A program made the position numbers and the translations under genes. A stretch of 51,674 nt of DNA from Gammaproteobacteria bacterium (GTDB taxonomy: Bacteria > Pseudomonadota > Gammaproteobacteria > JAABTG01). The notes under the pieces were generated by a model. It was not told the origin of the DNA. It did no database searches and saw nothing but the letters and a program-made list of their open reading frames with translations. The stretch is taken from the NCBI GenBank assembly GCA_017999615.1, contig JAGNLM010000014.1, positions 1 through 51,674 on the forward strand, given 5' to 3'. The first letter of the stretch is position 1. Each line of letters starts with the position of its first letter. Shown here piece by piece: positions 21,856 through 24,940 of the stretch.

Positions 21856-22842
21856 ATGTCCCCCACCGCCCCCGACCCGGAAGCCCTGATCCGTCTCGGC
21901 GTTGCCGTCCTGGAGACGGAGGCGGCGGCCATCCGCGACCTCGTGCCCCGCGTCGGCGGGGACTTCGCCCGGGCCTGCGAATACCTGCTGGCCTGCCGCG
22001 GCCGCATCGTCGTCCTCGGCATGGGCAAGTCGGGCCACGTGGGCGGCAAGATCGCCGCGACCCTCGCCAGCACCGGCAGCCCCGCCTTCTTCGTCCACCC
22101 GGGCGAGGCGAGCCACGGCGACCTGGGGATGATCACCGCCGCGGACGTGGTCCTGGCGCTCTCGACCTCCGGCGAGACGGACGAGATCCTGGCCATCCTG
22201 CCGATCATCCGCCGCCTCGGCGTCCCGCTCGTCGCGCTGACCGGCAACCCCGGCTCGCGGCTCGCCCGCGAGGCGAGCGTGCACCTGGACGTGAGCGTGG
22301 CCCGCGAGGCGTGCCCCCTGGGGCTCGCCCCGACCGCGAGCACGACGGCGGCGCTCGCCATGGGGGACGCGCTCGCGGTGGCGCTGCTGCAGGCGCGGGG
22401 CTTCAGCGCGGAGGACTTCGCGCGCTCGCACCCCGCCGGGCGCCTCGGGCGCCGGCTGCTGCTGCACATCGCCGACGTCATGCGCACGGGCGCCGCGCTG
22501 CCCCGGGTCGGCCCCGATGCGACCCTGAGCGAGGCGCTGGTGGAGATGACCAGCAAGGGGCTCGGCATGACCGCCATCGTGGACGCCGGGGACCGGGTGC
22601 TCGGCCTCTTCACCGACGGCGACCTGCGCCGGGCGCTCGACCGCCGGGTGGACCCCCACGAGGCCCGCATCGCCGAGCTGATGACCCGCAATCCGAAGAC
22701 CGTCCCGCCGGGGCTCCTCGCCGTCGAGGCCCTGAACCGCATGCAGCAGCACAAGATCAACGGCTTCCTGGTGACCGCCGAGGACGGCCGGTTGCTGGGG
22801 GCGCTGAACACGCACGACCTGCTGCGGGCGGGCGTGCTGTGA
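21856..22842 (+). CDS. kdsD: D-arabinose 5-phosphate isomerase
   Basis: A 328-residue enzyme converting ribulose-5-phosphate to arabinose-5-phosphate, the first step of KDO synthesis. The SIS domain shows GMGKSGHVGGKIAATLASTG, the SHGDLG loop and SGETDEI. Two CBS domains follow (about residues 210-325, with NGFLV and LGALNTHDL). ATG 21856 gives exactly the length of E. coli KdsD. An in-frame ATG at 21814 would add 14 residues. TAGAAT at 21810-21815 may be its -10. It heads the kdsD-kdsC-lpt-rpoN cluster. Confidence 0.95.
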   Translation: MSPTAPDPEALIRLGVAVLETEAAAIRDLVPRVGGDFARACEYLLACRGRIVVLGMGKSGHVGGKIAATLASTGSPAFFVHPGEASHGDLGMITAADVVLALSTSGETDEILAILPIIRRLGVPLVALTGNPGSRLAREASVHLDVSVAREACPLGLAPTASTTAALAMGDALAVALLQARGFSAEDFARSHPAGRLGRRLLLHIADVMRTGAALPRVGPDATLSEALVEMTSKGLGMTAIVDAGDRVLGLFTDGDLRRALDRRVDPHEARIAELMTRNPKTVPPGLLAVEALNRMQQHKINGFLVTAEDGRLLGALNTHDLLRAGVL

Positions 22843-22886
22843 GGGACGCGCTGTGACGGAGGTGCCGGAGCGGTGAGGGGGCAGGC

Positions 22887-23411
22887 GTGAAGGATGTCCT
22901 GGAGCGGGCCGCACGCGTGCGGCTGGTGGTCTTCGACGTCGACGGCGTGCTGACCGACGGCAGCCTCTTCTTCGGCGACGACGGCGAGGAGTACAAGGCC
23001 TTCCACGCGCGGGACGGGCAGGGCATGGCCATGCTGCGCGAGGCCGGGGTGGAGATCGGGGTCATCAGCGGCAGGACCTCGCGGGCGGTCACTCACCGCA
23101 TGTCCTCGCTCCACGTCTCCCACGTGTACCAGGGCCAGCAGGACAAGCTGGCCGCCTTCGAGGAGCTGCTCGGCAAGCTCGGCCTCACCGCGGACCAGGC
23201 GGCCTTCGTGGGCGACGACGTCATCGACCTCCCCATCCTGCTGCGCGCCGGGCTCGCCATCGCGGTGGCGGACGCCCACCCCCTGGTGGCGCGCCACGCC
23301 CACTGGCAGACCCCCAGCGCCGGGGGGCGCGGCGCCGGCCGGGACGTCTGCGAGCTCATCCTGGAGGCGCGGGGCCAGCTCGAGGCGCTGTCGCAGCGCT
23401 ACCTGCGGTGA
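22887..23411 (+). CDS. kdsC: KDO 8-phosphate phosphatase
   Basis: A 174-residue HAD-family phosphatase that releases KDO from KDO-8-phosphate. HAD motif I FDVDGVLTDG, motif II VISGRTS, the lysine in GQQDKLAAFEE and motif IV FVGDDVIDLP are all present. It uses GTG 22887, 44 bases after kdsD. Its TGA stop overlaps the GTG start of the lptC remnant (GTGA), the usual kdsC-lptC coupling. Confidence 0.96.
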   Translation: MKDVLERAARVRLVVFDVDGVLTDGSLFFGDDGEEYKAFHARDGQGMAMLREAGVEIGVISGRTSRAVTHRMSSLHVSHVYQGQQDKLAAFEELLGKLGLTADQAAFVGDDVIDLPILLRAGLAIAVADAHPLVARHAHWQTPSAGGRGAGRDVCELILEARGQLEALSQRYLR

Positions 23412-23647
23412 GCCGTTGGTGGATCGCGGCCCTCCTCGCGAGCGCGCTCCTCGGCAGCGCGCTCGACGTGTAGATGCGCGACGTGACGGTGCTGCCCTCC
23501 CGCGAAGAGGCCCGCACGGAGGCCCCCGCGCGCATCGTCGGGCCCTGGGGCGAGGCCGAGGGCGTCGGCATGAATCTCCGGCTCGCCGCGAGCCGGTTGG
23601 AACTTCTCTCCCGGGTGAGGACCCGCTATGACCCACAAAGGCACTGA
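23408..23647 (+). pseudogene. lptC: degenerate lptC: in-frame deletion plus TAG stop
   Basis: A single frame runs from GTG 23408 (overlapping the kdsC stop) to TGA 23645-23647 (overlapping lptA by 20 bases), exactly where lptC belongs. It encodes a 21-residue membrane helix (MSRWWIAALLASALLGSALDV), then TAG (23471-23473) immediately followed by ATG, then 57 residues. Those residues match the LptC C-terminus from memory: VTVLPSREEARTEAP, GPWGEAEGVGM and [16 protein letters not shown], corresponding to its last beta strands. The intervening jellyroll, about 100-110 residues in LptC (normal length about 190), is missing. LptC normally bridges LptBFG and LptA. The two halves share a frame, so the lesion is an in-frame deletion plus a nonsense codon. 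An assembly artefact is possible. Confidence 0.85.
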
Positions 23648-24218
23648 GCTGTTCCTGATCCTGCTCGCGACCCTTCCCGGGGCCGCCCTCGCGCTCTCCA
23701 CCGACCGGGACCAGCCGGTGCACATCGAGGCCGACCGGGGCGAGCTGGACGACGTGAAGGGGGTGACCATCTACGAGGGCCGGGTGGTGGTGACCCAGGG
23801 CAGCATCAAGATCACGGGCGACCGCGTGGTCCTGTACTACGACGACCAACGGGACATCTCGCGGGCCGAGGCCGTCGGCAAGCCGGCGACCTACCAGCAG
23901 CTCTCGGACGGCGAGACCGAGCCGCTCAAGGCGCGGGCGCTGCGCATGGACTATCAGGTCAAGGAGGGGGTCATCGACCTCTACGACGACGCGAGCGTCC
24001 TCCAGTCGGGCAACAGCCTCTTCGGGAACCGGATCACCTACGACACGGTGAACGAGCGGGTGAAGGCCTCGCGCTCCGGTTCCGGGGAGGACCGCGTGCG
24101 CGTCATCCTCACCCCCAAGGCGAAGGACGGTGGGAAGGACGGAAAGAAGGATGGCGCCCCGGAGCCGGCGAAAGGCCAGCCCGCAAACGCCGGGCCCGGG
24201 AAGGGCGCCGCGCGATGA
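23628..24218 (+). CDS. lptA: periplasmic LPS-transport bridge protein
   Basis: A 196-residue precursor with a signal peptide (about residues 1-24, ending ALALS). The OstA/LptA jellyroll follows: [59 protein letters not shown] and [16 protein letters not shown] Lys/Gly/Pro-rich tail (about residues 165-196) is longer than in E. coli. LptA oligomers carry LPS across the periplasm. ATG 23628 lies inside the lptC remnant, and the stop overlaps lptB. Unlike lptC, the gene appears intact. Confidence 0.94.
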
Positions 24219-24940
24219 GCGTCCTGGCGGCGCGCCATCTGTCCAAGCGCTACCGCTCCCGGTATGTGGTGAACGACGTCAGCCTCAGCGTCACCAGCGG
24301 CGAGGTGGTCGGCCTGCTCGGCCCGAACGGCGCCGGCAAGACCACTTCGTTCTACATGATCGTGGGGCTGGTCCGCCCCGACGGCGGCACCATCGAGGTC
24401 AACCGGCGGGACATCACCTGGGAGCCGATGCACGTGCGCGCCCGGCTCGGCGTCGGCTACCTGCCCCAGGAGCCGTCGGTGTTCCGCAAGCTCACCGTGG
24501 AGCAGAACATCCTCGCCATCCTGGAGACGCGCCCGGACATGGACCGTGCCGAGCGTGAGCGCCGCGCGGAGTCGTTGATGAACGAGCTCCACGTGGGGCA
24601 CCTGCGCGACCAGATGGGGCTCAGCCTCTCGGGCGGTGAGCGCCGGCGCGTGGAGATCGCCCGGGCGCTCGCCGCGGACCCGCGCTTCATCCTCCTGGAC
24701 GAGCCCTTCGCCGGCGTCGACCCGCTCTCGGTGGTGGACATCCAGCGCATCATCGCCCACCTGAAGGAGCGCGGGATCGGCGTCCTCATCACCGACCACA
24801 ACGTCCGCGAGACCCTCGGGATCTGCGACCGCGCCTACATCGTGACCGAGGGCCACACCATCGCCGAGGGCGACCCCGAGTCGATCCTGCAGGACCGGCG
24901 GGTGCGCGAGGTCTATCTCGGCGAGGATTTCAAGCTGTGA
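24215..24940 (+). CDS. lptB: LPS export ABC transporter ATPase
   Basis: A 241-residue ATPase powering LptFG extraction of LPS. Walker [10 protein letters not shown] (about residues 37-45), Q-loop [12 protein letters not shown], signature [15 protein letters not shown], Walker [14 protein letters not shown] and switch His in TDHNVRE are intact. It overlaps lptA by 4 bases (ATGA). lptF and lptG are not in the window, as is normal. Intactness of lptA and lptB argues that the export pathway is in use despite the damaged lptC. Confidence 0.97.

Follow-up and report, generated by a model that had tools for sequence, protein, structure and literature searches.

The canonical lipopolysaccharide (LPS) exporter of Gammaproteobacteria is a seven-protein machine, LptB2FGC-A-DE, and LptC has been thought to be retained in every LPS-making bacterium (Falchi et al., 2022, PMC9972910), a premise that the genomes described here suggest needs revision. 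An LptC-free machine is known from laboratory selection in E. coli, where all independent suppressors of an lptC deletion carried Cys, Gly or Ser in place of Arg212 of LptF, and these suppressor forms still tolerate LptC (Benedet et al., PMC4986956). LptF R212G gives a six-protein bridge with direct contact between LptF and LptA and wild-type-like coupling, and both R212G and R212S restore LptC-like ATPase coupling (Falchi et al., PMC9972910). A natural version based on a paralogous LptFG pair would be new; no natural LptC-free gammaproteobacterium was reported in the literature searched, whose coverage left out most subscription papers and preprints.

The window analyzed here is a stretch of 51,674 nucleotides from a Gammaproteobacteria bacterium, whose genome (G000) is 99% complete. 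In common with the canonical machine, G000 features the gene order kdsC-lptA-lptB (Table 1), and family members of LptA, LptB, LptD, LptF and LptG are encoded, the same set that is retained in the E. coli six-protein complex. The interval between kdsC and lptA (23408-23647) was found by reading and translation to contain a transmembrane-like start, a TAG codon and the final 57 codons of LptC. The N-terminal remnant, translated as VSRWWIAALLASALLGSALDV and followed by TAG, occupies the position of the N-terminal helix of LptC in G003 and G004, two genomes of the same family, and gave no profile match on its own; its start codon GTG overlaps the kdsC stop. The C-terminal remnant begins with an ATG at 23474, immediately after the TAG, and stops at 23645-23647. 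It matched positions 126-175 of the 175 positions of the Pfam LptC profile PF06835 (E 1e-8) and positions 133-180 of the NCBIfam LptC profile TIGR04409 (31.3 bits, below the 38-bit cut-off), and since both profiles match, the resemblance is beyond chance.

An intact LptC would match its profile over the full length above the curated equivalog cut-off and would carry the N-terminal membrane anchor and the periplasmic jellyroll in one open frame, whereas the G000 remnant matches over the final 48 positions only and its frame is interrupted by the TAG. The slot is about 110 codons shorter than the intact LptC of G003 (189 aa), with the frame kept. The stretch 'ALDV*MRDVTVLP' of the remnant aligns with 'RLEVLTSNLTIY' of the G003 protein (inner part 'LEVLTSNLTIY'), which places the TAG inside a former beta-strand and marks it as a second lesion. 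Taken together, an in-frame deletion and a nonsense codon lie between retained gene overlaps, with 4 bases (GTGA) shared by kdsC and the lptC start and the lptA ATG at 23628 located inside the end of the remnant. The first-pass annotation had described a broken lptC with an N-terminal helix, an in-frame TAG and the last beta strands, a central part of about 100 residues gone, both overlaps preserved, and lptA and lptB apparently intact; direct reading and the PF06835 match agree with this picture, the missing part measuring about 110 codons against G003, and LptA and LptB both score above their NCBIfam cut-offs. A short direct repeat, AGCGCGCTC, is present in two copies at window 23433-23465 and adjoins the deletion join, which might bear on the origin of the deletion.

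Table 1. Genes and gene remnants of the kdsD-lptB locus, in window coordinates
Feature	Position	Strand	Evidence and remarks
kdsD-type arabinose-5-phosphate isomerase	21856..22842	+	Upstream of kdsC; frame and translation, sequence likeness, gene order
kdsC, KDO-8-phosphate phosphatase, intact	22887..23411	+	NCBIfam KdsC, 211.8 bits (cut-off 208)
lptC, N-terminal remnant	23408..23473	+	GTG start, 21 codons resembling a transmembrane helix, in-frame TAG at 23471-23473; direct reading and translation
lptC, C-terminal remnant	23474..23647	+	57 codons, final beta-strands; overlaps lptA start; PF06835 match
lptA, intact, signal-peptide-like start	23628..24218	+	PF03968, E 1.7e-28; NCBIfam LptA, 153 bits (cut-off 71.7)
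lptB, intact	24215..24940	+	NCBIfam LptB, 391.5 bits (cut-off 240)

Outside the window's contig, G000 encodes an intact lptD on another contig, next to a SurA-like frame, whose product was recognized as an Lpt protein by the NCBIfam profile search, as well as one intact lptF-lptG pair. The products of this pair passed the LptF and LptG equivalog tests (TIGR04407/TIGR04408) with 245 bits against a cut-off of 230 and 292.9 bits against a cut-off of 240, respectively. Alignment with the E. coli-type LptF (6s8h_F) placed Ala at the Arg212 position, in an ungapped stretch directly after a conserved Gly. In a tree of 76 LptF sequences, 23 formed a distinct paralogue clade with support of 100/100, here termed LptF2 (LptG2 for the partner), to which the G000 protein belongs. 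Arg212 is found in 50 of the 53 remaining LptFs and in none of the 23 LptF2 proteins, which bear Ala, Ser, Leu, Ile, Gln, Val, Met, Tyr or Gly instead. The first-pass annotation had pointed to lptF and lptG as the places to look for bypass residues and had presumed that LPS export continues without normal LptC; with Ala found at this site, that view gains support as a presumption.

Like the E. coli suppressors and their six-protein complex (PMC4986956, PMC9972910), G000 has no encoded LptC and no Arg at LptF position 212. The two differ in that the G000 system is natural rather than selected in the laboratory, and in that the residue is Ala, with Gly or Tyr in relatives, instead of Cys, Gly or Ser. 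Moreover, the E. coli suppressors are point mutants of the canonical LptF, whereas the residue of G000 sits in a paralogous LptF2G2 pair, so that the putative bypass lies in the paralogous pair instead of in a mutated canonical LptF.

The sister species G001 has both lptFG pairs, the canonical lptF1G1 being located between dcd-like and pepA-like frames (named by sequence likeness). In G000, the dcd and pepA flanks are 93-96% identical to those of G001 and are joined without the 2.26 kb holding lptFG, and this precise junction indicates that the G000 lineage lost lptF1G1 after its split from G001. The deletion maps to another contig than the lptC locus and is thus independent evidence that the lptC lesion is real. 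Contamination as the source of the G001 lptF1G1 was rejected, since the pair sits in DNA syntenic with G000. Relative to the canonical machine, G000 has LptF2G2 instead of LptF1G1, the pepA-linked pair, and retains LptC only as a remnant, the gene being absent altogether in the other LptC-less genomes described below.

The locus was compared in close relatives, as the first-pass annotation had proposed: lptC is complete in G003 and G004, while G002, also of the same family, has none, with kdsC and lptA only 12 bases apart. The G001 assembly breaks across kdsC-lptC-lptA-lptB (window 22060-24873; end of contig C134 and start of C209), perhaps due to strain variation. An LptC match was present in 79 of the 80 named kdsC loci, the exception being L142 (JALSIC010000056.1) of genome G056, identical to G384. 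Survey of the class uncovered two further empty lptC slots, one in the closed genome G118, whose congener G231 has lptC, and one in G181, where a gap of about 185 bases is left. Counted by family codes rather than on a species tree, the LptC-less genomes, five in all, belong to four families (f1, f66, f74 and f137), and several independent losses are likely because f1, f66 and f74 also include lptC-bearing members. Judged from these genomes, lptC loss is real and recurrent, extending over four families, and it is seen here only where LptF2 exists. G044, G387, G340 and G320, whose lptA or lptB locus could not be located, were left out of the conclusions on lptC status, and a plasmid search gave lptB-type matches only.

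For all five LptC-less genomes, the LptF that was read belongs to the LptF2 clade, and the residue at the Arg212 position is Ala in G002 and G056, Gly in G118 and Tyr in G181. G000, G002 and G056 each carry just one lptFG pair, which is of type 2; G181 has one LptF match and G118 has two, of which the type 2 copy was read. Both kinds of LptF together with lptC are retained in G003, G004, G066, G083 and, by match count, others. The cultured species Thiohalobacter thiocyanaticus likewise has both pairs. Among about 20 LptF2-bearing genomes whose lptC status could be read, 5 lacked the gene, versus none of about 50 with LptF1 only (about 0.001 by simple count), and within the LptF2 genomes it was absent in 4 of 7 without a second LptF seen versus 1 of 13 with one (p 0.03), figures which are guides only, as the genome sample is non-random, related genomes are non-independent and the counting was manual.

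These results are most readily explained, with a probability of roughly 0.7, by a recent pseudogenization of lptC in a genome that exports LPS via LptB2F2G2 with direct handover from LptF2 to LptA and no LptC. Export at the inner membrane would run on LptB2F2G2, which contains the paralogous LptF2 and LptG2; LptF2 would pass LPS straight to LptA, resulting in an LptF2-LptA-LptD bridge comparable to the six-protein E. coli machine with LptF R212G, and the use of ATP would be coupled without LptC. The Arg-type lptF1G1 would have been lost first, leaving LptC without a partner needing it, followed by the decay of lptC, while LPS production presumably continued. More broadly, LptF2G2 is probably a naturally LptC-independent LPS exporter core in several gammaproteobacterial families, in which dependent genomes lost lptC repeatedly (five genomes, four families) to give natural six-protein Lpt machines. 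Arg212, a site known from selection in the laboratory, would then mark a real evolutionary route, and natural LptC-free exporters would provide systems for studying the purpose of LptC, the joining of LptF to LptA and the coupling of ATP use to LPS extraction in the absence of LptC.

Several points count against bypass by LptF2. G159, G284 and G331 have LptF2, no second LptF match and yet keep LptC, indicating that a non-Arg LptF permits but does not force the loss of LptC, in line with the tolerance of LptC by the E. coli suppressors. The Tyr of G181 is unlike the known suppressor residues (C, G, S), no test of LptF R212A in E. coli appears in the suppressor literature covered, and a second LptF is matched in G118. 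In addition, the bypass of LptC in E. coli requires overexpression of LptA, and G000 gives no sign of such a requirement.

It is unlikely that LptC is replaced by an LptC-like protein encoded elsewhere in the genome, whether strongly diverged or relocated. Divergent LptC proteins do escape the Pfam search in G050 and G010, but these copies occupy the usual slot, while that of G000 holds the remnant only. Genome-wide search of G000 with PF06835 (E <= 0.001), in answer to the first-pass proposal to look for a second lptC, found the remnant as the sole match, and in G002, G384, G118 and G181 only LptA or LptD matches emerged at E <= 0.5. G010, G050 and G007 had themselves been candidates for LptC absence and were rejected, since a divergent LptC-like frame occupies the slot in each.

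Alternatively, LPS export could have been abandoned, with LptF2G2 serving another lipid and the Lpt and LPS genes decaying. The loss of both the canonical lptFG and lptC would suit such a course, and the finding that several genomes carry LptF2G2 alongside the canonical pair points to an originally separate role. The intact state of kdsC, lptA, lptB and lptD, together with LptF2 and LptG2 scores above the NCBIfam LptF and LptG cut-offs, argues for continued export and makes abandonment very improbable.

A functional two-piece LptC, as raised in the first-pass annotation, would consist of the 21-residue transmembrane peptide and a 57-residue piece re-initiated at TAGATG, the two bridging LptF and LptA. 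The ATG directly after the TAG would allow this, and the remnant is 32-38% identical to intact relatives, compared with 28-38% among intact C-termini, but such conservation equally fits recent loss, though some constraint may exist. The 57-residue piece has neither a signal peptide nor a transmembrane segment and would therefore stay cytoplasmic, visual inspection reveals no ribosome-binding site, and lptC is wholly missing in four other lineages (G002, G056/G384, G118 and G181), so a minimal two-piece protein is most doubtful. A collapsed or misjoined assembly hiding an intact lptC in the organism is highly unlikely as well, for although the G001 assembly breaks at the same locus and assembly of this region may be difficult, the lesion combines an in-frame deletion and a nonsense codon with kept flanking overlaps, the canonical lptFG is lost on another contig, and lptC is cleanly absent in four other genomes, including the closed G118.

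Other irregular lptC and lptFG loci were encountered among the genomes compared. In G058 (L159:4552-4920, JAUPTV010000247.1), LptC is shortened internally in frame to about 140 residues, so that its N-terminal half runs directly into the last strand, and LptF keeps Arg at position 212. The LptC frame of G057 (L125:591-1080, JACRMO010000064.1) is broken after about 124 profile positions and resumes in another frame; as an LptF/LptG frame of this metagenome-assembled genome also contains a TAG, sequence errors are possible. The canonical LptF1 of G004 (L052, G004:C31) has Ser, a known E. coli LptC-bypass residue, at the Arg212 position with lptC intact, while the congener G003 has Arg. A third, divergent lptFG pair of G003 (G003:C2:1306315-1311316; L212, L041), with Met at LptF position 212, has a second lptB-like gene in its vicinity (59% identity) and possibly belongs to a separate Lpt-like exporter. 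Finally, lptF2G2 adjoins acetyltransferase-like and nucleotidyltransferase-like genes in both G002 (L237:3740-8149, G002:C71) and G003 (L238:10431-12469, G003:C6), neighbors that may hint at the original substrate or role of the pair.
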